Below are positions 19,227 to 36,285 of a stretch of DNA of 64,000 bases, one piece after another (the first letter of the stretch is position 1; every line of letters starts with the position of its first letter). The position numbers and the translations under genes were made by a program. The notes below the pieces were generated by a model. It searched no databases, was not told the origin of the DNA, and saw only the letters and a program-made list of their open reading frames with translations. The DNA lies in assembly GCF_004362395.1 (NCBI RefSeq), contig NZ_SNWE01000005.1, positions 124,001 to 188,000 of the forward strand. Reading direction: 5' to 3'. The DNA comes from Salegentibacter sp. 24. GTDB lineage: Bacteria > Bacteroidota > Bacteroidia > Flavobacteriales > Flavobacteriaceae.

Positions 19227-21965
19227 TTAATCTGCAATATTTGGATTTAGCCATTTTTCGGCCTTTTTCAGGGGAATTCCTTTTCTTTGGGCAAAATCTT
19301 TTACCTGGTCTTCTTTAATTTTTCCAAGACCAAAATAACGGGCTTCGGGATTGGCGAAATAATAACCACTTACACTTGCTGCCGGCCACATGGCCAAACT
19401 TTCGGTGAGTTCGACGCCAATTCGCTCTTTTACTTTTAAAACTTCCCAAATACTCAATTTCTCTAAATGATCTGGGCAGGCAGGATACCCGGGAGCTGGT
19501 CGAATGCCTTTATAGGTTTCCTTTATTAATTCTTCATTGCTTAAATTCTCCTCAGGAGCATAACCCCATTCCTCACTACGGATTTTTTTATGAAGAAATT
19601 CTGCAAAAGCCTCGGCAAGCCTATCGGCCAGGGCTTTTATCATTATCGAGTTATAATCGTCGTGATCTTCTTCAAACTTTTTGGCTAGCTCTGCTGTCCC
19701 AAAACCGGTGGTTACACAAAAACACCCCATATAATCCTGAACCCCGAATTCCTTTGGTGCAATAAAGTCGGAAAGCGCAAAGTTCGGTTTCCCTCCGTGT
19801 TTTTTTAATTGCTGACGAAGCGTTCTAAAGAGCATCGTTTTTTCTTCGGAATTCTCCCTATAGGTAACTTCAATATCATCATCGTTAACCGTATTGGCAG
19901 GAAACAGTCCATATACTGCTTTTGCTTTGAGTAATTTTTCATCAAGGATTCTGTTGAGTAAAACTTTAGCATCTGCAAATAAAGAAGTTGCCTGTTCACC
20001 GACCACTTTATCTTCTAAAATATCAGGATACCTGCCATGCAAATCCCAGCTTCTGAAAAAAGGGCTCCAATCAATATAAGCCTCGAGTTCTTTTAAGTCT
20101 AAATCGTCAATTTGATGTATTCCAGGCTTATTTGGTTTTATCAGCTGCGCAGCTTTCCAGTCAATTAAGTACTTATTTTTCCTGGCTTCTTTAATGGATA
20201 AAAAAGATTTAACCTTACTTCTTTTCTTAAAATTAAGCCTGAATTTATCATACTCGATTTTAAGATCATCCATATATTTTTGGCGCGTATCTTCCTTTAA
20301 AAGATCACCAATTACCGTCACTGCCCGTGAGGCATCATTTACATGAGCAACCGCATTTTTATACTGCGGATCTATTTTTACTGCGGTATGTGCTTTTGAG
20401 GTAGTAGCACCGCCAATTAGCAAAGGCACATCAAAATTTTGCCGTTGCATCTCTTTGGCAAGAAAAACCATCTCATCCAAAGAAGGTGTAATCAACCCAC
20501 TTAGACCGATAGCATCAACGCCTTCCGCCTTAGCCGTTTCGATTATTTTCTCCGGAGGAACCATCACCCCGAGATCTATTATTTCATAGTTGTTACAACT
20601 TAATACCACGCCTACGATATTCTTGCCAATATCATGTACATCACCTTTAACGGTAGCCATAAGAACTTTCCCTGCCGAGGATCTTTTATTAGATTTGTCG
20701 TCTTCAATATAAGGGAGTAAGTAAGCGACCGCTTTCTTCATTACCCTGGCCGATTTAACTACCTGAGGAAGAAACATTTTCCCACTACCAAAAAGATCCC
20801 CTACCACGTTCATTCCTATCATCAAATGTCCTTCTATAACCTCAATAGGCTTTTGTGCTTCCAGGCGAGCCTGTTCTATATCCTCTAAAATATAAGCATC
20901 GATCCCCTTTACCAGCGCATGAGTGATTCTTTCCTGCAAGGGTTTTTCCCTCCAGGAAAGGTCTATTTTGCTCTCCCTTTTTGATCCTACCACCGTTTCG
21001 GCAAAATCAAGTAAACGCTCAGTAGCATCTTCCCGCCGGTCAAGTATTACATCTTCAACGCGTTCTAAAAGGTCCTTGGGAATATTATCATAAACTTCCA
21101 GAAGTGCAGGATTCACAATTCCTATAGTCATTCCTGCCCTAATCGCGTGATAAAGGAACACGGAATGCATTGCTTCCCGCACTGGATTATTTCCACGGAA
21201 AGAAAAGGAAACATTACTCACCCCTCCACTTACATTGCAGTGGGGAAGATTTTCTTTTACCCAACGGGTTCCTTCTATAAAATCTATAGCATTGCGTTTA
21301 TGTTCGTCCATCCCGGTTCCCACCGGAAAAATATTCAAATCAAAGATGATATCCTCAGGTGGTAATTTTACCTTATTAACCAGAATATCATAGGAACGTT
21401 TAGCTATTTCTATACGCCGCTTGTAGTTATCGGCCTGTCCAACCTCATCAAAAGCCATCACAATTACCGCCGCACCGTAACGCTTTATTTTCCTGGCGTG
21501 CTGAATAAATTCTGCTTCGCCCTCTTTAAGACTAATAGAATTCACCACACATTTCCCCTGCACCACTTGCAAACCGGCTTCAATAATTTCCCATTTTGAG
21601 CTGTCTATCATAATAGGCACACGTGAAATATCGGGTTCGGCAACAATAAGGTTGAGAAATTTAACCATAGCCTCTTTTCCTTCAATAAGGCCATCGTCCA
21701 TATTGATGTCGATAATCTGTGCGCCACCATCTACCTGGTCTCTGGCGACTTCTAGTGCTTCCTCAAATCTTTCCTCTTTAATTAAACGAAGGAACTTCTT
21801 GGAGCCAGCCACATTGGTCCGCTCTCCTACATTGACAAAATTACTTTCCGGGGTGATTATTAAAGGTTCAAGGCCTGATAATTTCAGCGGTCTGACTTCT
21901 TTTTGTCCCATCTCACCAGCAAAAGATTTTTGCTGGCTATTTTCTTGATTAAATGTCTCTATCAT
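19227..21965 (-). CDS. metH: Methionine synthase, cobalamin-dependent, C-terminal part (folate, B12 and activation domains)
   Basis: A 912-residue protein carrying the folate, cobalamin and reactivation modules of MetH. About residues 30-300 form the pterin-binding domain ([40 protein letters not shown]). About 350-580 hold the cap and B12-binding domain with [15 protein letters not shown], the DxHxxG histidine that ligates cobalt, and [12 protein letters not shown]. The C-terminal 300 residues are the SAM-dependent activation domain ([14 protein letters not shown]). The homocysteine-binding module is a separate gene upstream, overlapping by 4 bp (ATGA). The two together equal one full MetH, a split usual in this phylum. 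Confidence 0.95.
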
Positions 21966-22978
21966 AAGGCGGTAGAAAACTCAGATTTTACAATGTTTCT
22001 CGGATTATAATCTTTTGCTATTTGGGCAATTGCCTTAATATGTTCCGGGGTTGTTCCGCAGCATCCACCCAGGATATTGACCAGACCTTTTTCTAAATAT
22101 TCCTTGATTTGGCTTGCCATCTCTTCTGCATCCTGATCATACTCTCCGAATGCATTTGGTAAACCCGCGTTGGGATAAGCAGAAACACCGCAATCCGCAT
22201 ATCGGTTCAAAACTTCCAGGTGCGGAGTTAGCTGTTTAGCACCCAGGGCACAATTGAAACCAACACTCAACAAAGAGATGTGTGATACTGAAATTAGAAA
22301 AGCTTCAGCTGTCTGCCCTGATAAGGTACGTCCGGAAGCATCGGTAATAGTTCCACTTACCATAATGGGTATATCAATTTGCAGTTCTTCTTTAAGTTCT
22401 TCGATGGCAAAAAGTGCTGCTTTAGCGTTTAATGTATCAAAAACGGTTTCTACTAAGAGGATATCTACTCCTCCCTTTATTAAAGCTTTAGCCTGTTGTT
22501 TATAAGCGATTCGTAGTTCTTCAAAAGAAATTGCACGAAAGCCAGGGTCGTTAACATCCGGGCTCATACTCGCGGTTTTATTGGTTGGCCCCATAGCACC
22601 TGCCACAAAACGTGGTTTATTTGGGTTTTCCTTTGTTAATTCTAAAGCGACTTCCTTGGCAATCCTGGCAGACTCATAATTGAGTTCATCCACAAGTTCT
22701 TCCATCTTATAATCGGCCATAGCAATAGTGGTTGCAGAAAATGTATTTGTTTCTACAATATCAGCACCAGCTTCAAAATATTTTCGGTGAATTGTGGCTA
22801 TTGCCTCGGGCTGGGTAATAGACAGCAGGTCATTATTTCCCTGCAGGGAAACCGGCCAATCCGAAAAACGGGTTCCACGAAAATCTTCCTCAGAAAATTT
22901 GTATTCCTGAAGCATAGTGCCCATAGCACCATCCAGAATGAGTATACTTTTTTGAAGTTGTTCTTCTAATCTTGACAT
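21962..22978 (-). CDS. Methionine synthase homocysteine-binding subunit (split MetH N-terminal module)
   Basis: A 338-residue homocysteine S-methyltransferase barrel. Zinc ligands are seen as a cysteine in GFNCALG near residue 244 and the pair in [14 protein letters not shown] near residue 310; [11 protein letters not shown] opens the barrel and [13 protein letters not shown] follows. It supplies the homocysteine site for the B12 and folate modules encoded next. It is the first gene of the metH-metF operon and follows the SAM-I riboswitch. Confidence 0.94.
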
Positions 22979-23027: not shown

Positions 23028-23142
23028 TTCTTGTTATCTATCTGCACCAAAAAAGAGCAGTAGAACGTAGCACCTTCTCCCATTACAGGAGGGTTGCCAA
23101 GGTTTCAACGGGTCTATTCCCTCAACCTTTCTTGATAACGAT
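23028..23142 (-). promoter_or_regulatory. SAM-I (S-box) riboswitch upstream of metH/metF
   Basis: On the minus strand the aptamer reads GTTATCAAGAAAGG, then GAGGGA, GACCC, TTGAAACC, TTGGCAACC, AAGGTGC, GCAGATAGATAAC, in the order and spacing of the S-box consensus. P1 is formed by GTTATC (23134-23139) and GATAAC (23033-23038). About 55 bases separate P1 from the ATG. The short GAAAGAATTCTTTC palindrome and TTTTTTT after it could be part of a switching hairpin, but the expression platform is not clear. SAM binding should lower expression of methionine synthase. Confidence 0.93.
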
Positions 23143-24395: not shown

Positions 24396-25463
24396 CTAAA
24401 CCCCAATACTCTGCACCACTTCTTTTTTGGCTTCTTTTTTACTACCATCAAATCCTGTTACACCGCCCACTGTAGTATATTTAAGCACGTATTTCTTATC
24501 GGGAAAAATTCGCTGGTAAGCACTTTGGCACATAATCGCGGCCTCGTGGAAACCGGAAAGGATCAATTTCAATTTTCCTTTATAGGTATTGACATCTCCG
24601 ATAGCATAAACTCCGGGAATATTTGTTTGATAATCGTAAGAATTATCAACTTTAATTGCGTTTTTCTCTATTTCCAGTCCCCAGCTTCCTATTGGCCCCA
24701 GTTTAGGAGACAACCCGAAAAGCGGTATAAAATCGTCTACATCCTTAAATTCCTCTCCACGTGCTTCATCTTTATGTCTGATGACCACTTGCTCAAGTTG
24801 ATCTTCACCTCTCAGGCCTACAACTTCAGCATTGGTTATCATTTCAATTTTACCCAGTTTAGCCAATTCTGAAACCCTTTCTACAGAATCCAGAGCGCCA
24901 CGGAACTCCGCCCTACGATGAACCAATGCAACTTCGGCAGCGACATCGGCCAGATAAATGGCCCAGTCTAAAGCCGAATCACCACCCCCGGCGATCACCA
25001 CTTTTCTATCACGATATACCTCAGGATCTTTAATAAAATAAGAAACCCCTTTATCTTCAAAATCGGCAATATTAGCAATCGGGGGCTTTCTTGGTTCAAA
25101 AGAACCCAGTCCACCGGCAATTGCCACTACCGGAGCATGATGTTTTGTTCCTTTATTGGTGGTCACTATAAAAGTACCATCATCGAGTTTTTCTAAAGTT
25201 TCGGCACGTTCGCCCAAGGTAAACCCGGGTTCAAAAGGTTTTATTTGCTCCATTAAATTTCCCACCAGATCTCCCGCTAAAATTTCAGGAAATGCTGGAA
25301 TATCATAAATTGGTTTTTTAGGATATATTTCAGAGCATTGTCCTCCGGGTTGCGGCAGTGCATCTATTAAATGCGTTTTTAACTTTAGTAAACCCGCCTC
25401 AAAAACGGTAAACAATCCGGTTGGTCCGGCCCCAATTATCAGGATATCTGTTTTAATCATCAC
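24396..25463 (-). CDS. Ferredoxin--NADP reductase, thioredoxin reductase-like type
   Basis: A 355-residue flavoenzyme that passes electrons between NADPH and ferredoxin. It shows the N-terminal FAD motif IIGAGPTGLFTVFEAG, the NADPH motif VIAGGGDSALDWA near residue 155, and YAIGDVNTY near 290. The CxxC redox pair of true thioredoxin reductases is missing, which points to the YumC/FNR-2 group. Its place next to ferredoxin-type sulfite reductase and siroheme genes suggests it supplies reduced ferredoxin for sulfite reduction. It overlaps the siroheme gene upstream by 11 bp; a second ATG one codon in is equally possible. Confidence 0.88.
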   Translation of the reverse strand: MMIKTDILIIGAGPTGLFTVFEAGLLKLKTHLIDALPQPGGQCSEIYPKKPIYDIPAFPEILAGDLVGNLMEQIKPFEPGFTLGERAETLEKLDDGTFIVTTNKGTKHHAPVVAIAGGLGSFEPRKPPIANIADFEDKGVSYFIKDPEVYRDRKVVIAGGGDSALDWAIYLADVAAEVALVHRRAEFRGALDSVERVSELAKLGKIEMITNAEVVGLRGEDQLEQVVIRHKDEARGEEFKDVDDFIPLFGLSPKLGPIGSWGLEIEKNAIKVDNSYDYQTNIPGVYAIGDVNTYKGKLKLILSGFHEAAIMCQSAYQRIFPDKKYVLKYTTVGGVTGFDGSKKEAKKEVVQSIGV

Positions 25464-26046
25464 TCTTGTTTTTAACTTTTAAAGATTCGGTTATAGAATT
25501 CATTTGTGATACTTTAGCTTCAAAATCGCCTTTTATAGTGCTTCTGTATTCATTCAGGTTTTCCACCATTTGGTTTATGTTTTCAGGAATTACTTCCTCA
25601 AAAAACTGACGCAGACGCTTGGCAGCGGTAGGTGATTTCCCATTAGTGGAAATCGCTATTTTCACATGGCCCTTGTTTACAATTCCACCCATATAGAAAT
25701 CACAGAGTTCCGGGGTATCGGCAATATTGGCCAGTAAGTATCGCTTTTTCGCATGTTTGTATACGCGTTTGTTCAATTTCTCATCATTGGTGGCCGCAAT
25801 TACAAAATGCCTATTTTTAAGATATTTTCTTTTATACCTGCCTTTGGTTAATTTTGCCCCATGTTTTTTTGCCAATTCTTCTGTTTCAGGCAAAAACCAT
25901 TTAGCCACTACTTCTACCCTGGCATTCGGGCTTGATTTAAATAGAAAATGCAATTTTTCGTGTCCTACACTTCCTCCGCCAACCACCAGAATATTGAGTT
26001 TATTGACTTTTAAAAATACTGGGTATAATTCGTTTCTTTCTTCCAT
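25453..26046 (-). CDS. Precorrin-2 dehydrogenase / sirohydrochlorin ferrochelatase
   Basis: A 197-residue protein equal to the N-terminal half of CysG (Met8/SirC-like). It oxidises precorrin-2 with NAD+ and may insert iron to give siroheme for the sulfite reductase next door. The NAD-binding motif reads ILVVGGGSVGHEKLHFL, ISTNGKSPTAAKRLRQF is the conserved substrate segment, and FVIAATNDEKLN and LANIADTPELCDF are typical. It sits 11 bp after cobA and overlaps the FNR gene. Whether it chelates iron is inferred from context. Confidence 0.9.
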   Translation of the reverse strand: MEERNELYPVFLKVNKLNILVVGGGSVGHEKLHFLFKSSPNARVEVVAKWFLPETEELAKKHGAKLTKGRYKRKYLKNRHFVIAATNDEKLNKRVYKHAKKRYLLANIADTPELCDFYMGGIVNKGHVKIAISTNGKSPTAAKRLRQFFEEVIPENINQMVENLNEYRSTIKGDFEAKVSQMNSITESLKVKNKSDD

Positions 26047-26057
26047 AAAATTGCTCT

Positions 26058-26843
26058 CTATGCCTGGATGGAGTAATTAATATATTCACTCTTTTCACTT
26101 ACATTTTCGAAAACAGCCTGCAGTTTTCCGCTTTCCCTAACCACTTCGCCAATTACGATAATGGCGGGGGCGGTTAATTGTTTTTCAGCAACTACTTTCT
26201 CAATACTTTTAATGGTTCCAAAACCAGTTTGCTCATTTGTGGTTGTGCCATTTTGGATAATTCCTACGGGAATATTTTCCTTTCCATAGTGACTAAAAAT
26301 GTCTACAATTTCGGCAAGTTTCGACATCCCCATCAAGATCACTACTGTTGCAGTTGACTGCGCTGCCAGGCGAACATCATCAGAAAGTTTCTTTTGCGTT
26401 GTTGTCCCGGTGATCACCCAAAAACTCTCAGAAGTTCCACGTTGGGTAAGGGGAATACCAACATTTGCAGGCACCGCTACGGAAGATGTTATTCCTGAAA
26501 CCACAGCTGTTTCCAAACCTTTGCTTTTTGCGTAATTAATTTCTTCAGACCCCCTGCCGAAAATAAAAGGATCGCCGCCTTTCAAGCGTACCACGTGTCC
26601 TCTTTCAAAGGCATATTTTACGATCAGCTGGTTGATTTGCTCCTGTGAATAACGGTGCTTATCCTTGCGTTTACCGACAAAAATATGCTCGGCCTGAGGA
26701 CAATATTTTAAGAGGTCCCGGTTTATAAGTGCATCAAATAGCACAACTTTAGCATCCTTTAATGCATTTATGGCCTTTATTGTAATCAATTCGGGATCTC
26801 CAGGACCTGCTCCGACTACGCTTAATTTTGGTGAATTATACAT
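26058..26843 (-). CDS. cobA: Uroporphyrinogen-III C-methyltransferase
   Basis: SUMT methylates uroporphyrinogen III twice with SAM to give precorrin-2, the first step to siroheme. The 261-residue protein has VGAGPGDPELITIKA at its start, RLKGGDPFIFGRG near residue 85, VVSGITSSVAVPA and GTPLTQ-like GIPLTQRG. I start it at 26843, where AAAGGAGGTACAAAATG gives a strong Shine-Dalgarno site that is rare in this phylum; a start at 26870 would add nine residues deeper inside the sulfite reductase gene. It overlaps that gene by 8 bp. Confidence 0.93.
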   Translation of the reverse strand: MYNSPKLSVVGAGPGDPELITIKAINALKDAKVVLFDALINRDLLKYCPQAEHIFVGKRKDKHRYSQEQINQLIVKYAFERGHVVRLKGGDPFIFGRGSEEINYAKSKGLETAVVSGITSSVAVPANVGIPLTQRGTSESFWVITGTTTQKKLSDDVRLAAQSTATVVILMGMSKLAEIVDIFSHYGKENIPVGIIQNGTTTNEQTGFGTIKSIEKVVAEKQLTAPAIIVIGEVVRESGKLQAVFENVSEKSEYINYSIQA

Positions 26844-28929
26844 TTTGTACCTCCTTTGTTCTAAATGCATCTACCCTTTTTAAGAACAAATGCGCATCCT
26901 CTAAATAATCATTAGCAAAAGCCTCTGTTGGCTCATGCCTATCCATTTGATAAACGAATTCTTTAAAAGAAGTCGATAATTCAATTTTACCGGTTTCTAC
27001 GAACAATTCGTCAAACTGCGAGATGATACCGGCCTGGGTATTGGTTTTCACATCCTCTGCCAGCAGCATTGCCTTAGCAGAATTCACAATGGAGGTATAG
27101 GAATGATAAATACTATCCGCCCACGCCTTTCTCCCTAGCGCGCTTTTCGCATTGTCTATTTTTTCTTCGCTTTCAAATAAGAGGGTAGCGATAAGGTCGA
27201 TCACCACACCGGCACATTCGCCAACTCCAACTGCTTTTATATAAGGTTCTTCATGACCCCAATCTATATACTCGTTTTCTGTTAGGCTTGAAGTATCAGC
27301 CAGGTCCTTTAATAAATCGTAGAAATAGGTTTTCCCCTGGCGATCGTAATATTCAGCAAACCTCTCTTTGGAATTCGCATTGGCCTGAAAATCATTCAGT
27401 AACAATCGCAAAGCTTGCGGACCTCGTTTACTTGGCACTTTCACTACTTTATCAGCAAAACGACCCTGGCCATTACCAATGGTTCCTCCCCCAAGTAAAA
27501 CCTGAAGAGCCGGGGCTACGGTTTTCCCGACTTTTACAGACATACCCTGGAAACCTATCTCAGCCATATTATGCTGACCACAAGCATTCATACAACCACT
27601 TATTTTTATGGTAATATCTTTTCCGTTTATAAACTGCGGGTATTCTTCTTTTAATACATCCTCCAGCACATCGGCAATACCGGTACTGCTGGCAATTCCA
27701 AGGTTACAGGTATCGGTACCCGGACAGGCCGTAATATCTACAGTTTTATCATAACCGGTTTCCGCATAGCCCAGCTTTTTCAACTCGGAATAGAAAAATG
27801 GCAGCAATTCTTCTCTAACATGACGTACTAAAATATCCTGTCTTAAACTTAGCCTAATCTCATTTCCTGCATACTTTTTAACTAAATCGGCAAGTTTCCT
27901 TGCACCCCCAGTATAAAAATCCCCTAACGGAACTCGAATTCCAATTGCGAACAATCCTTCCTGTTTCTGTGGGATAACATTGGTGCTTTTCCAGATTTCA
28001 AAAACTTTCTGGTCTTCAATTTTTACAGTGGGCACCTCCACTTTTTGCAGTGGTGGTGTTACTTCGAATTTTTCAATTTTAAATGCAGGATGATTTTTAG
28101 ATAGTGCTGTGTTTTGCTTGGCTACCAAATCCATAAAAGCTTCCTTTCCAATATCTTTTACGAGAAATTTCATCCTGGCTTTTAGCCTTTTAGCACGTTC
28201 GCCATAACGATCAAAAACTCGTAAAACACCTTCTATTAAGGGAAGTAGTTCTTCAGCGGGAAGAAAATCATAAAGTTCATCCGCATGTCTAGGCTGTGAG
28301 CCGAGACCGCCACCTAACATAACTTTAAATCCACGTTTTCCTTCTTTCAGTTTAGCGATAAAGCCAAGATCATGAATATAACTTAATGCTGTATCTTCAT
28401 CGGAAGAAGAAAAGGAAATCTTAAATTTTCTTCCCATTTCCTGGCAAATCGGATTCCGAAGAAAAAATTCGAAAGTTCCCTGTGCATAAGGGGAAACATC
28501 AAAAGGTTCATTTGTATCAATTCCCGCGGTTGGGGAAGCGGTCACGTTTCTCACCGTGTTGCCGCATGCTTCACGTAAGGTAATATCATCTTTCTCCAAT
28601 TGTGCCCACAGCTCCGGTGTTCTATCTAAACTTACGTGGTGAATCTGTATATCCTGACGTGTAGTAATATGTAAACGTCCCTTGGAATATTCATCAGAAA
28701 CATCAGCTATTCTATGCAGCTGTTCTGATGTTACTTTTCCAAATGGCAGTTTTATTCGAACCATTTGTACGCCAGCCTGTCTTTGCCCATACACACCACG
28801 AGCTAAACGAAGGCTTCGAAATTTCTCTTCATCGGCTTTCCCTTCACGAAATAACCTGATTTTCTTTTCCAGATCCAGGATATCCTTCTCTACAACTGGG
28901 TTTTCTATTTCGGTTCTAAAACTTTGCAT
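26836..28929 (-). CDS. Assimilatory sulfite reductase, ferredoxin-type, with C-terminal HEPN-like extension
   Basis: A 697-residue siroheme enzyme reducing sulfite to sulfide. Two ferrodoxin-like half-domains alternate with two siroheme half-domains; the four cluster ligands are visible as TACPGTDTCNLG near residue 405 and SGCMNACGQH near residue 450 (CX5C...CX3C). The last 150 residues beyond the usual end form an all-helical region that resembles HEPN-type extensions seen on flavobacterial homologues. It is followed at once by the siroheme genes and the ferredoxin reductase. Nitrite reductase is the alternative, but the cysH neighbourhood favours sulfite. Confidence 0.9.
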   Translation of the reverse strand: MQSFRTEIENPVVEKDILDLEKKIRLFREGKADEEKFRSLRLARGVYGQRQAGVQMVRIKLPFGKVTSEQLHRIADVSDEYSKGRLHITTRQDIQIHHVSLDRTPELWAQLEKDDITLREACGNTVRNVTASPTAGIDTNEPFDVSPYAQGTFEFFLRNPICQEMGRKFKISFSSSDEDTALSYIHDLGFIAKLKEGKRGFKVMLGGGLGSQPRHADELYDFLPAEELLPLIEGVLRVFDRYGERAKRLKARMKFLVKDIGKEAFMDLVAKQNTALSKNHPAFKIEKFEVTPPLQKVEVPTVKIEDQKVFEIWKSTNVIPQKQEGLFAIGIRVPLGDFYTGGARKLADLVKKYAGNEIRLSLRQDILVRHVREELLPFFYSELKKLGYAETGYDKTVDITACPGTDTCNLGIASSTGIADVLEDVLKEEYPQFINGKDITIKISGCMNACGQHNMAEIGFQGMSVKVGKTVAPALQVLLGGGTIGNGQGRFADKVVKVPSKRGPQALRLLLNDFQANANSKERFAEYYDRQGKTYFYDLLKDLADTSSLTENEYIDWGHEEPYIKAVGVGECAGVVIDLIATLLFESEEKIDNAKSALGRKAWADSIYHSYTSIVNSAKAMLLAEDVKTNTQAGIISQFDELFVETGKIELSTSFKEFVYQMDRHEPTEAFANDYLEDAHLFLKRVDAFRTKEVQNV

Positions 28930-29034
28930 TACTGATATTTTTTAAATTTAAACCTGAACTACAGGTATTTAATAAGATAGGCCCTTTCAAATTTTCACTT
29001 AAAAGACCTTATATAATTTTTATAAAAGATACTT

Positions 29035-29070
29035 TTAGAAGCAGCAGATACGCATAATCCAACGGCACAT
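29035..29070 (-). CDS. Candidate Cys-rich leader peptide before sulfite reductase
   Basis: An 11-codon ORF, MCRWIMRICCF, lies in the gap between cysH and the sulfite reductase gene and has three cysteines including a CC pair. Downstream, 28982-29012 can fold into an imperfect hairpin (AGGTC / GGCCT) and 28952-28966 into a five-pair one, but neither has a strong T-run. By analogy with the Met/Cys leader ahead of metY it may sense charged Cys-tRNA, yet no clear antiterminator pairing was found, so this is a suggestion only. Confidence 0.4.
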   Translation of the reverse strand: MCRWIMRICCF

Positions 29071-29105
29071 ACTTGTATATTTTTACTCTTTTCTCATTTT
29101 ATTAA

Positions 29106-29735
29106 TCAAGCGTGTAGACCACATTCCCGGTTTTCCAGAACTTTTGTGGGATCAAAGTATTTAAATTCATTTGGCAAGTGATTTTGCTCTAAATACGCAT
29201 CGAGTTTTTCATCGCTCCAGTGGTAGAAGGGACTTACTTTCAAGACGCCATCTTTACTGTAGCTCAAAATATCTATACTATCCCTGAAGCTGGTCTGTCC
29301 CTTTCTAAGGTTGGTAAACCAAACATCTGGATTTTGCTGGCGCATAGCTCGCAAGAAAGGTTCCAGTTTAACCTGTCTGGTGAACTCTTCGTGCTGTGGG
29401 TTATTGATATCAGGAATTCCGCCAAAAAGTGCATCGCGATAGGCGGCAGTTTGTTTTGGGGTATAAAGCTTTACATTAAGTGACAACTGATCAATCACCT
29501 GTTTTGCGTGTTTATAGGTTTGCGGAGTATTATAACCGGTATCGCACCAAATCACCTTTATTACGGGATCTATTTCTGAAACCGCGTGTAAAATCGCTGC
29601 TTCATAAGGTCTGAAATTAGTCGTGATTACCGGCCTCGCGGCGTTAGAAACCACCCATTGCACGATCTCAGCCGGCGTTATTCCCTTGAACTGCTGGTTG
29701 AGGATTTTTAATTCTTTTTCGCTGTACCGTTTCAT
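29106..29735 (-). CDS. cysH: Phosphoadenylyl-sulfate reductase
   Basis: Reduces activated sulfate (PAPS) to sulfite with thioredoxin. The 209-residue PP-loop family protein has the C-terminal catalytic ENRECGLH motif. The paired CC...CxxC cysteines that bind the 4Fe-4S cluster of APS reductases are absent, so it looks like the PAPS-type enzyme. Substrate segments VIWCDTGYNTPQTY and FTNLRKGQTSFRDSI are present. No ATP sulfurylase (cysD, cysN) or APS kinase gene lies in the window. It follows the DUF2061 gene and an Rrf2-family regulator. Confidence 0.9.
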   Translation of the reverse strand: MKRYSEKELKILNQQFKGITPAEIVQWVVSNAARPVITTNFRPYEAAILHAVSEIDPVIKVIWCDTGYNTPQTYKHAKQVIDQLSLNVKLYTPKQTAAYRDALFGGIPDINNPQHEEFTRQVKLEPFLRAMRQQNPDVWFTNLRKGQTSFRDSIDILSYSKDGVLKVSPFYHWSDEKLDAYLEQNHLPNEFKYFDPTKVLENRECGLHA

Positions 29736-30187: not shown

Positions 30188-30604
30188 TTATTTCTTAGCA
30201 GAAATATCGGCTAATGTATTATCGCCCAGTACCTTTAGCGTACTATCCCTAACCTGAATCATCAAACTATGGACAGAACAGGCTTCTTCACTAGGACAAT
30301 CGCCACATTTTTCGTAATAATTAAGGCTTACACAAGGTACCATGGCAATGGGCCCCTCTAAAACCCTAATTACTGCAGTCATTTTGATAGCTTCGGGTTC
30401 TTTGATTAAATAATAACCACCGCCTTTACCTTTTTTAGAACCCAAAAAGCCCGATTTTCGTAGTTCCAGAAGAATGCTTTCAAGGAACTTCTGGGAAATA
30501 TTCTCACTTTTTGATATCTCAGAAGTCTGAACTGGCCTTTTATCTCCTTTTTTCGCAATAAATGCCAGCGCTTTAATTCCGTATTTTGTCTTTTTTGAAA
30601 GCAT
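30188..30604 (-). CDS. Rrf2 family transcriptional regulator
   Basis: A 138-residue winged-helix regulator starting MLSKKTKYGIKALAFIAKKG. The HTH lies at about 25-55 (TSEISKSENISQKFLESILL), followed by the wing SKKGKGGGYYL. Cysteines at CVSLNYYEKCGDCPSEEAC resemble the Fe-S binding set of IscR-type members, with different spacing. It stands between methionine and sulfate genes and probably controls sulfate assimilation, as CymR-like proteins do in other bacteria. An upstream extension of 31 residues is open but does not match the family, so the later ATG is chosen. Confidence 0.88.
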   Translation of the reverse strand: MLSKKTKYGIKALAFIAKKGDKRPVQTSEISKSENISQKFLESILLELRKSGFLGSKKGKGGGYYLIKEPEAIKMTAVIRVLEGPIAMVPCVSLNYYEKCGDCPSEEACSVHSLMIQVRDSTLKVLGDNTLADISAKK

Positions 30605-30699
30605 ATTGCGAATATACTTAAATATTGACTTTTTAGCATTTATAATTGAATTCTCTAAGGAAAAATTAAAAAGCCCGGAATTTGCTGAAATTACCATAA

Positions 30700-31863
30700 C
30701 TAAATTGAGTTTAAAGCTTGTTTTAAATCTTCTATCACATCATCCACATGCTCTAATCCTACTGATACCCTTACCAGCCCCGGTTTTATTCCTGCCTCTA
30801 ACCTGTCTTCTTCACTTAACTTACTATGGGTGGTAGATGCCGGATGCGTAACAATACTCCTTGTATCTCCAAGGTTTGCAGATCTTGAACAGAGCTTTAT
30901 TGCATCTATAAATTTTCTTCCAGCAGCAATCCCACCTCTGATTTCAAATGCCACTATATTACCTCCTTTTTTCATTTGTTTTTTTGCAATATCATACTGT
31001 GGATGCGACTTTAAAAAAGGATATTTTACATTTTCGGCATTGACCTCAGTCTCTAAAAATTCTGCTACTTTTTCTGCATTTTCACAATGCTTATCCAAAC
31101 GAACGGAAAGCGTTTCCAGGCTTTTGGAGAGCACCCAGGCATTAAACGGTGACAAAGCCGGCCCAGTATTCCTTGAGAACAGGTAGATTTCCCTGATTAA
31201 ATCAGCGTTTCCAACTGTTACACCGCCCAGAACGCGGCCTTGTCCGTCTATTAATTTTGTCGCCGAATGAATCACTAAATGTGCACCGAATTTGATAGGA
31301 TTCTGCAACCAGGGAGTTGCAAAACAATTATCTATTATTAGAATAAGGTTGTGCTTTCTCGCAAGTTTTCCCAGCACTTCTAAATCTAAAATATCTACCC
31401 CGGGATTGGTAGGGGTTTCAGCGAAGATAATTTTGGTTTCCGGTTTTATTAAACTTTCAATTTTATCAACTTCATCCACATTAAAATAGGAATGTGAAAT
31501 ATTCCACTTCGGAAAATACTTGGTAAATAAACTATGTGTAGATCCAAAAACCGATCTTGCCGAGATTATATGATCACCACTATTCAACAGTGCAGCAAGG
31601 CTTGAAAATACGGCACTCATTCCTGTTGCGAATGCAAACCCAGCCTGTGCACCTTCCATTTTTGCTATTTTCTCAGTAAACTCTGAGGTATTTGGATTTG
31701 TAAATCGGCTGTAAATATTGCGTTCTTTTTCTTCAGAAAATGAAGCTCGCATATCTTCGGCATCATCAAAAACATAACTGGACGTAAGATAGAGCGGCGT
31801 GGAATGCTCCTGGTATTGCGTTCGTTCGTTTTGTGTTCTAATGGCTTCGGTTTCAAAATGCAT
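30700..31863 (-). CDS. metZ: O-succinylhomoserine sulfhydrylase-like PLP enzyme (MetZ type)
   Basis: A 387-residue Cys/Met-metabolism PLP enzyme. The PLP lysine is in HSATKLIDGQGRVLGG near residue 205, where the -LIDGQGR- insert typifies MetZ; IYSRFTNPNTSEFTEKIA and GDTRSIVTHPASTTH are general family signatures. It would form homocysteine from an activated homoserine and sulfide; cystathionine gamma-synthase activity is the alternative. It is the fourth gene of the metY-metX-hom-metZ run, and the operon also has MetY, a second sulfhydrylase. The start is 22 bp from hom. Confidence 0.82.
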   Translation of the reverse strand: MHFETEAIRTQNERTQYQEHSTPLYLTSSYVFDDAEDMRASFSEEKERNIYSRFTNPNTSEFTEKIAKMEGAQAGFAFATGMSAVFSSLAALLNSGDHIISARSVFGSTHSLFTKYFPKWNISHSYFNVDEVDKIESLIKPETKIIFAETPTNPGVDILDLEVLGKLARKHNLILIIDNCFATPWLQNPIKFGAHLVIHSATKLIDGQGRVLGGVTVGNADLIREIYLFSRNTGPALSPFNAWVLSKSLETLSVRLDKHCENAEKVAEFLETEVNAENVKYPFLKSHPQYDIAKKQMKKGGNIVAFEIRGGIAAGRKFIDAIKLCSRSANLGDTRSIVTHPASTTHSKLSEEDRLEAGIKPGLVRVSVGLEHVDDVIEDLKQALNSI

Positions 31864-31885: not shown

Positions 31886-32959
31886 TTAATTTAGTCTTTG
31901 CGATAGCTTTAGCACATCACTTGCTACGCCCCGGGCGGTTACCGCGGCACCCGCACCGGCTCCTTGAATAACAAGCGGTTGATCGCCGTAGGATTCTGTG
32001 TAAATCTCAAAAATATTATCTGCACCCTTAATCTGACCCAGGGCGGTATTTTTAGGTTCGGAAATAAGCTTTGCCTCCAGGTTAGCACTACTTACTTCGA
32101 TTTCTCCAATGTACCTTAGCACATGGTCTTTCTTCTGCTTATTTTTATGTTGAAAAAATATTTCATCCAGCTCTCCTATTCTACGGTTAAATTCTTCTGA
32201 TGTAGTTTTGCCATTTAGTTTTTCAGGTATTAAAGATTGAATCTTAACTTCCTGAAATTCCTTTTCCAACTCTAGTTCACGTGCCAGAATTAATAACTTT
32301 CTACCTACATCATTTCCCGAAAGGTCCTCCCGGGCATCGGGTTCTGTATACCCTAGCTTTCCTGCTTTCCGCAGCACATCTGAAAACTTCTCCTTATTCT
32401 CAGAAAATGTATTGAATATAAAACTCAGTGATCCGGAGAAGACCCCTCTAATTTTTGTGACTTTTTCCCCTGCCTGATGCAAGCCCTGTACGGTTTGGAC
32501 TATTGGTAACCCGGCACCCACATTAGTTTCATAGTGAAAATATTTTCCGTGATAATCTAATTCTTTGCGCAATTTGTTATAAAAATCCGCCGAAAGTGTA
32601 TTGGCTACTTTATTTGCCGCTACCAGGTTAAAACCGTTTTGAATGAGGCGAATATAAAGCGCTACAAAATTCTTGCTGGCCGTGGCATCTATTGCGATAA
32701 GATGTTCCAGGCCATACTCCTTAGTAAAATCAAGAATATCTTCAAGTTGGTATTTTTTTCCAGATTTCTTGAACTCTTTTTGCCAGTTTTCGGAAATTCC
32801 TGCTGGATTAAAGAGTACCTTTCTAGAATTGGCAATAACCGGAATACTAACCGACACTCCTGAATGTTTTTCCCATAGTGCTTTTGCACCAAGTAATTGT
32901 TGGATTAATGTACTGCCTACATTACCGATTCCAAATAAAATGATGTTCACTTTCTTCAT
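31886..32959 (-). CDS. hom: Homoserine dehydrogenase (monofunctional)
   Basis: Reduces aspartate semialdehyde to homoserine. The 357-residue protein starts with the NAD(P) motif IILFGIGNVGSTLIQQLLG, has VAANKVANTLSADFY and GVFSGSLSFIFNTF, and GKLGYTEPDAREDLSGNDVGRK with the catalytic lysine region. It resembles the C-terminal half of ThrA without the aspartokinase or a separate ACT domain. Being placed between metX and metZ suggests this copy feeds methionine rather than threonine. Confidence 0.92.
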   Translation of the reverse strand: MKKVNIILFGIGNVGSTLIQQLLGAKALWEKHSGVSVSIPVIANSRKVLFNPAGISENWQKEFKKSGKKYQLEDILDFTKEYGLEHLIAIDATASKNFVALYIRLIQNGFNLVAANKVANTLSADFYNKLRKELDYHGKYFHYETNVGAGLPIVQTVQGLHQAGEKVTKIRGVFSGSLSFIFNTFSENKEKFSDVLRKAGKLGYTEPDAREDLSGNDVGRKLLILARELELEKEFQEVKIQSLIPEKLNGKTTSEEFNRRIGELDEIFFQHKNKQKKDHVLRYIGEIEVSSANLEAKLISEPKNTALGQIKGADNIFEIYTESYGDQPLVIQGAGAGAAVTARGVASDVLKLSQRLN

Positions 32960-32970
32960 CTAGTTATATT

Positions 32971-34032
32971 TTAACTCCAGGATCGGAAATTTGAAAAAGA
33001 TCTATCTTCATTGGCCTGCTTATTAAAAATTTCTGTCTCCAGCTTTTGGTTTTCATTTTTATCAAGGTTGATCTTAAACACAGGGTTTAAAAATCTGGAC
33101 AACTGGGCAGCTTCAATTAAAAACGCATCGTGTCCGTGAATTGATCTAATTTCGTGAATAGTCACATTATGCTTCACCAAGGATAAGTTTACATAGGTAT
33201 CCCAGTTTTCGTCAGCAAGAAAAAACCAATCAGAATTTACCGTTACAATATGTATATTCCCTTCTATTTTCTTTGCAGCTTCCAGGTAATTTCCGCTACC
33301 CCTGCTAATGTCTATAGTGGTCAACAAATGGTTCATTAACTTATAAGAAGCCAGTTGAAAACGTTCTTCCAGTTTATCGCCGTGATATTGCAACCAGCCT
33401 TCTACTTTATAACAAGGCTTTATTTCTTCTTTAGTCCTGTTAAATTTCTTGCTTAGCGACTGTGGGGTACGATAAAATGTCATCGCGTGCATTCTCGCAT
33501 CCTTTACTGGTGCATTGGAATTATTCAGGATTTGTTCCTGTACTTTACAATTTGCCAAGACCCAATCTGTGGCTTTAAAATCGGTAGCTATAGGAATTAT
33601 GTTCTGCGCCAATCCCGGCTTTAAAGCAGCCAGTTCCCAGGCCAAAGCTCCCCCAATAGAACCGCCGATTACAGCAAACAGTTTCTCGATTTTTAATCGC
33701 TCAAGAGCCAAAGCCTGAATTCTGGCAATATCCCGAAGCGTAAATTCTTTATAATTTTCAATTAAATGTTCCTTTTTTCCATTGAAGCCATTTCCCGGAA
33801 TATTAAATGCCAGAATACTAAATCTATTGGTATCTATACATTTTTGAGGCCCAACAATTTTATTCCACCAACCGAGCTTTCCAGTTATCTGGGAGTTACC
33901 CGTGAGCGCATGGTTTATTAAAACCACTGGTGCGGTTTCCGAATTTTGCCCAAATTGCTGAAAACTCACATAGATATCCTGCAGTGTTCCAGCAGAATTT
34001 TCAAAATCTTTTAAACAAAGTTCCTGAAGCAT
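32971..34032 (-). CDS. metX: Homoserine O-acetyltransferase
   Basis: An alpha/beta-hydrolase of about 353 residues that acetylates homoserine with acetyl-CoA. The nucleophile elbow is VIGGSIGGALAWE; the aspartate is in VNSDWFF and the histidine in IHGHDAFLIE, completing the triad. LINHALTGNSQ is the oxyanion segment. Its product feeds MetY and/or MetZ. I place the start at MLQELCLKDF (34032); an ATG at 34062 would add ten residues. A hairpin (34065-34094) separates it from metY. Confidence 0.92.
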   Translation of the reverse strand: MLQELCLKDFENSAGTLQDIYVSFQQFGQNSETAPVVLINHALTGNSQITGKLGWWNKIVGPQKCIDTNRFSILAFNIPGNGFNGKKEHLIENYKEFTLRDIARIQALALERLKIEKLFAVIGGSIGGALAWELAALKPGLAQNIIPIATDFKATDWVLANCKVQEQILNNSNAPVKDARMHAMTFYRTPQSLSKKFNRTKEEIKPCYKVEGWLQYHGDKLEERFQLASYKLMNHLLTTIDISRGSGNYLEAAKKIEGNIHIVTVNSDWFFLADENWDTYVNLSLVKHNVTIHEIRSIHGHDAFLIEAAQLSRFLNPVFKINLDKNENQKLETEIFNKQANEDRSFSNFRSWS

Positions 34033-34061
34033 TTTTTTCCTTTTTTGATTTAGAAAGAGCA

Positions 34062-34097
34062 AAAGGAAAAAGACTTAACCTGGCTGCTTTTTCCCTT
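34062..34097 (-). repeat. Inverted repeat between metY and metX
   Basis: GGAAAAAG (34065-34072) and CTTTTTCC (34087-34094) form an 8 bp stem with a 14-base loop in the 85 bp gap after metY. Without a T-run it is unlikely to end transcription; it may adjust the metY/metX ratio through RNA stability. Confidence 0.5.
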
Positions 34098-34117: not shown

Positions 34118-35410
34118 TTATACCAGCGCTTTACTATTAATTTTGGCAAAAGCTTCCTTTAAATCTGTTTTTAAATCATCCAAAGCTTCTAAACCTACCG
34201 AAAGACGAATAAGATCCTGAGTAACTCCCGCAGTAGCCTGTTGTTTTTCGTCCAGTTGCTGATGTGTAGTGCTTGCAGGATGAATGATTAAAGATTTTGT
34301 ATCCCCAATATTGGCAACCAGCGAAAACAACTTAGTTTCATCAGCCACAACTTTAGCTGATTCGAAGCCGCCTTCCACTCCAAAAGTTACCACGCCACTT
34401 TGCCCTTTGGGCAGGTACTCTTTGGCAAGTTTATTATACTTGCTACTTTCCAGGCCGGGATAATTCACCCATTTTACTTCTTTTTGTTGCTCTAGCCATT
34501 TGGCCAGTTCCAGCGCATTTTCACTATGCTGTTTTATTCTTATTTCCAGCGTTTCCAAACCTTGTAATATCTGAAATGCATTATATGGACTTAAAGCTGC
34601 ACCGTGATCACGGAGACCCTCGATTCTAACTTTAGCAATAAAAGCCGCTTCCTTTAAAGCCTCGTGATAAACAAGTCCGTGGTAACCTGGTGATGGTTCT
34701 GTGAATTCAGGAAATTTTCCATTTGCCCAGTTAAAATTTCCAGCATCGATAATCGCCCCTCCCAGGGAAGTTCCGTTTCCGCTAATGTATTTGGTCAGCG
34801 ATTCTATGACAATATCGGCACCGTGATCAATAGGTTTTAATAAAGAAGGCGTTGCTACCGTATTATCCACTATAAATGGCACTTTAAGAGCATTCGCTTC
34901 TGCTGAAATCGCTTTAAGATCCAAAACATCCAATTTGGGATTCCCAAGTGATTCTACAAAAATCGCACGGGTATTGTCTTTGGCTGCTTTTTTAAAATTC
35001 TCAGGATTCTCTGGATCCACAAAAGTGGTGGTAATCCCAAACCTAGGTAATGTAACGCTCAAAAGATTGTAAGTCCCACCATACAAACTGCTGGAAGCTA
35101 CGATATGATCACCGGATTTCAACAGGGTTAATAGAGTGGTATTAATCGCAGCAGTTCCTGATGCGGTAACAACCGCGGCGATTCCACCTTCTAATGCTGC
35201 CAGGCGTTGTTCCAGAATATCATTAGTAGGATTATTCAATCGGGTATATATGTAACCGGGTTCTGCAAGGGAGAAAAGATTGGCCGCATGATCTGAATTA
35301 TTAAAAACATAAGAAGTTGTTTGGTAAATAGGTACCGCCCTTGTTCCTCCATTAATTTTAGTATCGTGACCAGCGTGTAATGCGTTTGTTGAAAATTTTT
35401 GAGTACTCAT
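34118..35410 (-). CDS. metY: O-acetylhomoserine sulfhydrylase
   Basis: A 430-residue PLP enzyme that makes homocysteine from O-acetylhomoserine and sulfide (and may act as a cysteine synthase). The opening TNALHAGHDTKINGGTRAVP and the long 430-residue chain, with ESLTKYISGNGTSLGG holding the PLP lysine near residue 212, set MetY apart from MetZ and MetB. YTRLNNPTNDILEQRLAALE and GDTKSLIIHPASTTHQQL are family signatures. It is the first gene of the homocysteine operon and is preceded by two leader-peptide/terminator units. Confidence 0.94.
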   Translation of the reverse strand: MSTQKFSTNALHAGHDTKINGGTRAVPIYQTTSYVFNNSDHAANLFSLAEPGYIYTRLNNPTNDILEQRLAALEGGIAAVVTASGTAAINTTLLTLLKSGDHIVASSSLYGGTYNLLSVTLPRFGITTTFVDPENPENFKKAAKDNTRAIFVESLGNPKLDVLDLKAISAEANALKVPFIVDNTVATPSLLKPIDHGADIVIESLTKYISGNGTSLGGAIIDAGNFNWANGKFPEFTEPSPGYHGLVYHEALKEAAFIAKVRIEGLRDHGAALSPYNAFQILQGLETLEIRIKQHSENALELAKWLEQQKEVKWVNYPGLESSKYNKLAKEYLPKGQSGVVTFGVEGGFESAKVVADETKLFSLVANIGDTKSLIIHPASTTHQQLDEKQQATAGVTQDLIRLSVGLEALDDLKTDLKEAFAKINSKALV

Positions 35411-35494: not shown

Positions 35495-35536
35495 AAAAAA
35501 AAGTCCCCTTAAGCAGCTATTACCAAGGGGACCTTT
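35495..35536 (-). terminator. Second attenuator terminator before metY
   Basis: On the minus strand GTCCCCTT (35525-35532) and AAGGGGAC (35503-35510) form an 8 bp stem, extendable through flanking A-T pairs, followed by eight Ts. It lies between the Met/Cys leader peptide and metY. The TTGGTAATAGC that overlaps its 5' arm and loop (35516-35526) can instead pair over 11 positions, one a G-U, with GCTATTGCCAA in the leader (35573-35583). Confidence 0.92.
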
Positions 35537-35560
35537 AAATTGAACTCTAAACAAACTAAG

Positions 35561-35644
35561 TTACATTCGGTTTTGGCAATAGCATTTCATGTGTCGCATA
35601 CACATACACATCATCATATTTTTTATTGCCTTAAAATTTTTCAT
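35561..35644 (-). CDS. Met/Cys leader peptide (second of tandem pair) before metY
   Basis: A 27-codon ORF, ATG at 35644 and TAA at 35561. After MKNFKAIKN it reads MMMCMCMRHMKCYC and then QNRM, giving seven internal or terminal Met and four Cys in the last 18 residues. It is followed by a strong terminator and then metY. Stalling at the Met or Cys codons would leave the later GCTATTGCCAA codons (35573-35583) free to pair with the terminator loop; a ribosome reaching the stop would cover them and let the terminator form. Confidence 0.88.
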   Translation of the reverse strand: MKNFKAIKNMMMCMCMRHMKCYCQNRM

Positions 35645-35748
35645 CTTTTAATTTTTATTTTTTCCCTCAAAACCAGAAATTCAATTTTATTTTTTTCTCC
35701 GGCTTAAGCTTGAATTTCGGTCTTGGTGACTATCATTATCTTTTAAAT

Positions 35749-35780
35749 AAAAAAAACCGCTGCGATTGGCAGCGGCTTTT
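35749..35780 (-). terminator. First attenuator terminator of the metY leader
   Basis: On the minus strand CCGCTGC (35769-35775) and GCAGCGG (35757-35763) form a perfect 7 bp GC-rich stem around a 5-base loop, followed by eight Ts. The CGCTGC of its 5' arm (35769-35774) can pair with GCAGCG in the upstream leader peptide (35817-35822), and the pairing can be extended by AGC/GCT across a bulge. Confidence 0.9.
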
Positions 35781-35801
35781 TGCAATTTATCTTATTCAGA
35801 A

Positions 35802-35873
35802 TTAAGCAATGGAGCGCGCTGCGGAAGTTCTCCACATCATCATACGCATCATATTGCAAATTATCTGGTACAT
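35802..35873 (-). CDS. Met-rich leader peptide (first of tandem pair) before metY
   Basis: A 23-codon ORF, ATG at 35873 and TAA at 35802. It reads MYQIICNMMRMMMW followed by nine residues; five Met fall within residues 8-13. It begins about 13 bases after the predicted transcription start and is followed by terminator 35749-35780. Its Ser-Ala-Ala codons contain GCAGCG (35817-35822), a copy of the terminator's 3' arm, able to act as antiterminator when the ribosome is held at the Met codons. Confidence 0.87.
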   Translation of the reverse strand: MYQIICNMMRMMMWRTSAARSIA

Positions 35874-35892
35874 TTCTTTCTTTTGCTTGCCA

Positions 35893-35925
35893 CAAAGATA
35901 AGGGCAGAACTTTTTAATATCCAAA
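35893..35925 (-). promoter_or_regulatory. Promoter of the metY operon leader
   Basis: On the minus strand TTTG (35922-35925), a 21-base spacer and TATCTTTG (35893-35900) match the Bacteroidota promoter consensus. It would start the transcript just ahead of the first leader peptide, so both attenuators lie on one RNA. From 35926 to 36120 I see no gene. Confidence 0.65.
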
Positions 35926-36175: not shown

Positions 36176-36285
36176 TAAAAAAGGGAAGGATTTGACTGAT
36201 TGCAACCCTTTTATACTTTTTATAAGTGTAAGAAAAATGCTAAAGCAGTATCACTACTCCCTTAGCTTTCTGTCAAATTCAACCC
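36176..36285 (+). promoter_or_regulatory. SAM-II / SAM-V-type riboswitch upstream of metK
   Basis: AAAAAGGG (36178-36185) pairs with CCCTTTT (36206-36212) around GGATTTGACTGATTGCA, which closely matches the conserved SAM-II loop GATTTAACCGTATTGCA. Then GCTAAAGCAGT (36239-36249) matches the SAM-II tail, with ACTG (36195-36198) and CAGT (36246-36249) able to form the pseudoknot. A small extra hairpin (ACTTTTTATAAGT) lengthens the connecting loop, as in long-loop SAM-II/SAM-V variants. TTTGAC (36191-36196) can alternatively pair with GTCAAA (36272-36277), a possible switch. Confidence 0.78.

Follow-up and report, generated by a model that had tools for sequence, protein, structure and literature searches.

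Two predicted, unrelated Met/Cys leader-peptide attenuators in series upstream of metY in Salegentibacter and other Flavobacteriaceae

Introduction

On the minus strand of a 64,000-nucleotide stretch from Salegentibacter sp. 24 (contig NZ_SNWE01000005.1; the whole stretch is termed the window in the following), two short Met/Cys-rich reading frames, each followed by a hairpin and a T run, precede the O-acetylhomoserine sulfhydrylase gene metY. This locus raises the question why one operon should carry two such units, whether both belong to one transcript, and whether they read the same signal or two different ones.

Organization of the metY leader

The features of the leader and its surroundings are compiled in Table 1. 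Read along the minus strand, they follow each other in the order promoter motif, leader ORF 1, terminator 1, spacer, leader ORF 2, terminator 2 and metY, with an intrinsic terminator predicted by sequence between each leader ORF and the downstream operon. This layout is in accord with the proposal of the initial annotation that a single predicted transcript carries two serial leader-peptide attenuators, each having an ORF, a terminator and an antiterminator of its own.

Table 1. Positions of the leader elements, neighboring genes and riboswitches in the window
Feature	Position	Strand	Remarks
metY, O-acetylhomoserine sulfhydrylase	34118..35410	-	TIGR01326, 637.9 bits (cut-off 495.1)
Predicted promoter	35893..35925	-	TTTG 35925-35922 and TATCTTTG -7 box 35900-35893
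Predicted transcription start, metY leader	near 35888	-	
Leader ORF 1	35802..35873	-	MYQIICNMMRMMMWRTSAARSIA
Unit 1 antiterminator strand GCAGCG	35817..35822	-	pairs with terminator CGCTGC 35774-35769
Possible unit 1 protector hairpin GTGGA/TCCGC	35821..35835	-	three inner pairs counted
Unit 1 intrinsic terminator hairpin (predicted)	35751..35781	-	13 bp, then T run to about 35749
Leader ORF 2	35561..35644	-	MKNFKAIKNMMMCMCMRHMKCYCQNRM
Possible unit 2 protector strand GGCAATA	35624..35630	-	pairs with TATTGCC 35581-35575; minimum-energy and centroid fold
Unit 2 antiterminator strand GCTATTGCCAA	35573..35583	-	partner TTGGTAATAGC
Unit 2 antiterminator partner TTGGTAATAGC	35516..35526	-	terminator loop and top of 5' arm
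Unit 2 intrinsic terminator hairpin (predicted)	35499..35536	-	T run to about 35495
metX-like gene	32971..34062	-	best match TIGR01392, below cut-off; start codon uncertain
Homoserine dehydrogenase-like gene	31886..32959	-	NF006959, second half, below cut-off
Second sulfhydrylase-like PLP enzyme	30700..31863	-	NF006003, just below cut-off
Rrf2-family regulator	30188-30697	-	between second sulfhydrylase-like and cysH-like genes
cysH-like, sulfite/nitrite reductase-like, cobA, cysG N-terminal and reductase-like genes	24396..29735	-	co-directional
SAM-II riboswitch	36176-36253	+	upstream of metK-like gene (named by eye), divergent from metY
SAM-I riboswitch	23031-23141	-	upstream of metH

A detector that looks for a hairpin and T run behind a Met/Cys-rich ORF was run over the 64 kb window on both strands, and it returned 23 terminator-like hairpins and three pairs of leader and hairpin, namely unit 1, unit 2 and a weak match at 2541-2690 with 4 Met/Cys codons only. 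Folding energy z-scores of -2.4 (unit 1) and -3.6 (unit 2) were obtained, and within its own genome the GCAGC/GCTGC pattern matches at the window site and at one other place. The tandem arrangement in the window is not a product of chance. An ATG repeat at 947-961 was rejected; it falls inside a long ORF that by eye is polyprenyl synthetase-like.

Promoter and transcript

According to the cited passages of PMC9723704, the flavobacterial promoter box is positioned at -12 to -5. A TAnnTTTG box is found at the predicted promoter place in all 15 Salegentibacter genomes; on the minus strand of the window none lies between unit 1 and unit 2. Among 46 tandem loci (see below), the exact box occurs upstream of unit 1 in 35 (5.8 loci in shuffles), and the box together with TTG at the right spacing in 32 (0.6 in shuffles), with near matches recognized by eye in the 11 loci that carry no exact box. 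Between the units, as well as downstream of unit 2, the box was found in 1 of these 46 loci and the full promoter motif in none, which agrees with the initial annotation, where no promoter had been noticed between the units. These motifs suggest that both units reside on one mRNA. The counts of TAnnTTTG took the place of a sigma-70 promoter scan, dropped because this promoter type is the wrong one for the phylum.

Covariation and constraint on the RNA

Covariation was evaluated in alignments of leaders selected to be diverse (34 of 49 for unit 1, 35 of 56 for unit 2); L085 and L089, whose antiterminator is located past the stop codon, had been removed from the unit 2 set before aligning. For the unit 1 antiterminator, all 202 cells are paired (34 sequences), with a covariation of 0.220 versus 0.072 after shuffling (0/500). 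In the unit 2 antiterminator 92.7% of 341 cells are paired, and the covariation amounts to 0.115 versus 0.073 in shuffles, 35/500 of which matched it in the count of pairs with both partners changed. Both terminator hairpins with their T runs are present in the window, as the initial annotation had held, and pairing is maintained in 98.1% of the cells of the predicted terminator 1 (4 of 11 pairs changed on both sides) and in 97.4% of those of the predicted terminator 2 (7 of 11). The protector elements vary more: 88.2% of cells are paired in the three inner pairs of the unit 1 hairpin, with weak covariation, and the GGCAATA strand of unit 2 differs between species.

The antiterminator of unit 1 reads GCAGCG:CGCTGC in most genera, GCAGAG:CTCTGC in Flavobacterium and GCAAGGGC:GCCCTTGC in L027, and the 3' arm of the terminator changes together with these variants. 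For unit 2, the variants include GCTATTGCCA:TGGTAATAGC, TTGCCAAAAG:CTTTTGGTAA and AGATATTGCC:GGTAATATCT, among others. Taken one sequence at a time (mononucleotide shuffles, ≤0.05), significance is reached by 16 of 49 unit 1 antiterminators (6 bp) and 42 of 56 of unit 2; the support for the antiterminators is comparative, the short one of unit 1 taken singly being mostly not significant.

The letters of the unit 1 antiterminator are read in one frame in 40 leaders and in another in 9 (PQR for SAA/SAE), those of unit 2 in three frames (50, 2 and 1 leaders) or past the stop codon (3 leaders, n=56). Since the same letters are read in different frames across lineages, the constraint acts on the RNA: judged by the alignments, the tail of the leader is kept as RNA and the Met/Cys run as codons. 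An informal look at units 1 and 2 revealed no shared core sequence. Within Salegentibacter (L001, L006-L019), the stop codon of unit 2 is followed, ahead of terminator 2, by about 26 bases that hardly vary (TAACTTAGTTTGTTTAGAGTTCAATT in most).

Simulated ribosome stalling

Stalling was simulated by ViennaRNA folds of truncated transcripts, in which the RNA up to 12 bases past the stalled codon was masked (an assumed footprint) and which ended before the 3' arm of the terminator. In both units the simulated antiterminator pairing is high until roughly where the Met/Cys run ends and drops thereafter, the median falling between an early stall and the last codon from 8.9 to 1.6 bp (unit 1) and from 13.6 to 2.6 bp (unit 2). 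In 8 of 105 units, among them L019, L053 and the three unit 2 leaders with the antiterminator past the stop, the pairing at the last codon still amounts to at least half of the early value. In unit 1 of the window, the permissive zone, where a stall leaves the antiterminator free to pair, stops one codon past the last Met.

Met/Cys codons concentrate in this zone, with 267/291 inside versus 343/773 of the other codons for unit 1, and 503/622 versus 638/974 for unit 2; these counts are biased because the leaders were selected for Met/Cys content, they come from loci that share ancestry and are not independent samples, and they retain L015, L017 and L049, in which the script misplaced the start of unit 1. 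For almost all stall positions, equilibrium folds of full-length transcripts (8 loci) favored the terminators; the decision of the switch must therefore be kinetic.

Proposed mechanism and alternatives

The leader most probably consists of two unrelated, trp-type ribosome-mediated attenuators in series upstream of metY that read one sulfur amino-acid signal twice. Anatomy, covariation, unit order and the absence of a promoter motif from the spacer are read from the sequences themselves; from these we infer leader translation, termination, the dependence on amino acids and the multiplication of two decisions. Transcription would begin just upstream of leader 1. With charged Met (and Cys) tRNAs at hand, the ribosome would reach the end of leader 1 and mask the antiterminator strand, such that terminator 1 folds; a ribosome stalled at the Met/Cys run would leave this strand free to engage the 5' arm of terminator 1, so that RNA polymerase would continue. 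At unit 2 a second, identical choice would be made, with a different leader, antiterminator and terminator. As both units appear to sense the same pair of sulfur amino acids, the ribosome would have to stall twice in succession for the operon to be fully transcribed, and the leader would act as a serial gate with one signal and low leak. The more far-reaching reading, in which two evolutionarily unrelated attenuators, kept in fixed order in the family, form a conserved serial gate whose output is the product of two stalls and which replaces SAM riboswitches at metY, is advanced tentatively, its chances being put slightly below even. If it holds, the response would be steeper, and the leak lower, than with a single attenuator.

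Whether the two units could read different signals, with unit 1 responding to methionine alone and unit 2 to methionine plus cysteine, as the initial annotation had suggested, depends on the position of the Cys codons. The window offers some grounds for such a gate, with one Cys codon in leader 1 and four in leader 2, and the Met run proper of leader 1 in Salegentibacter is free of Cys. However, the single Cys of leader 1 (codon 6) lies inside the permissive zone of that leader, and the zone of leader 2 contains two Cys codons, which reduces the comparison to 1 versus 2; two of the four Cys codons of leader 2 overlap its own antiterminator strand, where a stall would block readthrough rather than aid it. 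The composition of the zones points in the same direction: Met accounts for 33% and 32% of the codons in units 1 and 2, and Cys for 12.4% in each (2.0% Met and 0.6% Cys in the long ORFs of the window, for comparison). Of all Met and Cys codons in the zones, Cys contributes 70/258 = 27.1% in unit 1 (46 of 49 leaders) and 134/480 = 27.9% in unit 2 (53 of 56 leaders), with L015, L017 and L049 left out for both units; in Salegentibacter (13 of 15 genomes) the shares are 9/75 = 12.0% and 17/126 = 13.5%. At least one Cys is present in the zone of 43/49 unit 1 leaders, in L015 and L017 owing to the misplaced start. The division into a methionine and a methionine-plus-cysteine sensor is thus not borne out and is considered unlikely; by codon content, Met and Cys appear to be sensed by unit 1 and unit 2 alike.

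It can also be asked whether only one of the attenuators works, the other being a relic or a constitutive terminator that reduces leak. Several loci would suit this reading, as nine carry unit 2 only and two unit 1 only, the second units of L193 and L197 have diverged to the point that no second hairpin was called, and in L050 the T run is broken; the leader ORF, the antiterminator and the terminator of both units are, however, conserved by covariation across genera and the spacer is not, which makes a single working unit improbable. A further possibility is that the leaders are no sensors of translation at all, acting instead as structured RNAs bound by a metabolite or a protein, or encoding small metal-binding Met/Cys peptides. 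Peptides rich in Met and Cys do resemble metal ligands, and the conserved stretch past the unit 2 stop codon in Salegentibacter could be counted in favor of this reading. Against this, an Rfam scan of the whole window at gathering scores returned SAM and SAM-II only, with no T-box and nothing in the metY leaders, and the ATG triplets fall nearly all in the frame of the ORF (210/3/3 by frame in unit 1, 405/1/11 in unit 2, in ORFs that had been chosen for Met). The peptide encoded by the tail shifts frame and the tail RNA is kept, with which a functional peptide does not fit; leaders that do not sense translation are regarded as highly improbable.

Distribution among metY loci and genomes

The initial annotation had called for a survey of metY upstream regions for zero, one or two units. 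From 110 metY loci, 101 distinct upstream regions were obtained after removal of 9 duplicates, a set that leans toward close relatives of the query genome. Terminators were called with the hairpin detector, which took over from regular expressions that overlooked variants; an extra hairpin called in L055 was removed from the counts. By script, 46 regions carry two units, 13 one unit and 42 none, and after the 13 single-unit calls had been read, 47 of the 101 were assigned as tandem, 11 as single (2 with unit 1 only, 9 with unit 2 only) and one as cut by a contig end (L054). The 47th tandem, L050, possesses the second leader together with the hairpin of broken T run. Unit 1 precedes unit 2 in all 46 tandems scored by script. 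Tandems were found in records under the names Salegentibacter, Christiangramia, Salinimicrobium, Mesonia, Flavobacterium and Lutibacter (six named genera). Both leader ORFs with conserved cores are present in 15 of 15 Salegentibacter genomes (own plus 14), across which the spacer between the units varies widely. On a quick metY tree, the locus states need at least 8 changes. As lineages with a single unit exist, two units are not strictly needed.

The 42 leaderless loci carry a sense SAM-I riboswitch in 38 cases, a sense SAM-II in 3 and neither in one (L020). A sense SAM riboswitch (RF00162, RF01726) was found upstream of metY in none of 58 leader-bearing loci (of 59, L116 being left out), and in the scanned loci a leader and a sense SAM riboswitch never occur together at this place. 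For L020 and L180 (G021), an IS may separate the leaders from metY: the leaders sit close to a contig end, metY sits close to the beginning of a different contig, and by eye the sequence at either break is transposase-like.

In a wider sample of 199 family genomes drawn evenly over genera, the covariance models R1 (unit 1) and R2 (unit 2) found matches in 22 (E ≤1e-4) and 14 (E ≤1e-3) genomes, respectively, and both within about 300 bases in 10; with the strict filters applied these counts are lower bounds, and weak matches may be due to chance. Six of the 10 genomes were read further, and in all six the pair is upstream of a metY-like ORF (by eye). A search of 60 relatives at E ≤0.1 produced many weak matches, of which a few were read and the rest counted as unproven. 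A unit 1-like leader stands alone upstream of metY in L027, L111, L195 and L196, and upstream of a metX-like ORF (by eye) in L194; unit 2 alone is upstream of a metX-like ORF in L198, for which the Pfam assignment is only alpha/beta hydrolase.

Several minor observations were made along the way. In L177 (G036), a genome without a strong metY match, a weaker tandem leader pair was found upstream of a periplasmic-binding/FecCD transporter operon, possibly for the uptake of vitamin B12 for methionine synthase, which is a guess. Unit 1-like leaders of weaker model score precede an alpha/beta hydrolase gene, possibly metX, in L178 (G038) and metY in L179 (G016). In three Flavobacterium loci with unit 2 only (L092, L096, L101), a small ORF, by eye about 60 codons long, lies downstream of terminator 2 and upstream of metY. 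L080, a record titled Bifidobacterium breve (MAG) with a Flavobacterium-like metY and tandem leaders, is probably a mislabeled or mixed bin.

Comparison with known systems

Tandem peptide attenuators had been thought in the initial annotation not to be described. They are known from mgtCBR of Salmonella (Lee and Groisman 2012), where, according to the cited portions of PMC3641672, tandem attenuators respond to ATP and proline and act additively; no tandem Met/Cys case was found among the open-licence PMC matches listed. As predicted for the metY leader, the mgtCBR leader mRNA carries two short ORFs, each governing readthrough via alternative stems, but these stems are unlike intrinsic terminators and the operon does not serve the biosynthesis of the amino acid sensed (PMC3641672, same portions); in the metY leader, by contrast, both leaders have Met/Cys codons and predicted intrinsic terminators, and the operon serves methionine. 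The metY units share with the trp-type attenuators of amino-acid operons the codon run, the antiterminator, the intrinsic terminator and the stall geometry, and differ from them in that two unrelated units stand in series, the codons are Met/Cys and the protector stem is weak or variable.

The metL leader upstream of metNIQ in Streptomyces lividans encodes a predicted Met-containing peptide and also has Cys codons, yet in the cited passages of PMC8079986 it is single, is located upstream of a transporter and lacks a typical Rho-independent terminator. The tandem riboswitches of B. clausii metE, which sense SAM and B12, are likewise two serial sensors with intrinsic terminators at a methionine gene; unlike the metY units, they sense SAM and B12 directly, without a leader peptide (PMC3641672, in the portions cited). 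For Flavobacterium psychrophilum, of the same bacterial family, leader-peptide attenuation has been noted, with pheA and hisG, also amino-acid operons, among the structured 5' elements; the cited passages of that study make no mention of metY or of tandem units (PMC9723704). Among the open-licence PMC matches listed, none describes a tandem Met/Cys attenuator or a leader attenuator for methionine in Bacteroidota. What is new here is the doubling of trp-type attenuators in series, with one signal read twice and two intrinsic terminators in front of a biosynthetic operon, as predicted for metY.

The metY loci provide a widespread and phylogenetically tractable set that includes natural relatives with a single unit and natural replacements by riboswitches, and in which both the added effect of a second serial attenuator and the shift of a gene between the sensing of SAM and of charged tRNA can be tested. 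Moreover, two covariance models have been gained for RNA elements that score below the Rfam gathering thresholds.

Genes and riboswitches around metY

The genes downstream of metY, siroheme genes among them, fit a methionine and sulfide supply cluster, with a putative common transcript; in the block at 24396..29735, cobA and the cysG N-terminal gene alone pass the family cut-offs. With SAM-I at metH, SAM-II at the metK-like gene and the leaders at metY, one genome seems to use all three for one pathway. A SAM-II riboswitch upstream on the opposite strand recurs at many tandem loci. The metH gene itself is apparently split into two ORFs, at 21962-22978 (by family search) and 19227-21965 (by eye).
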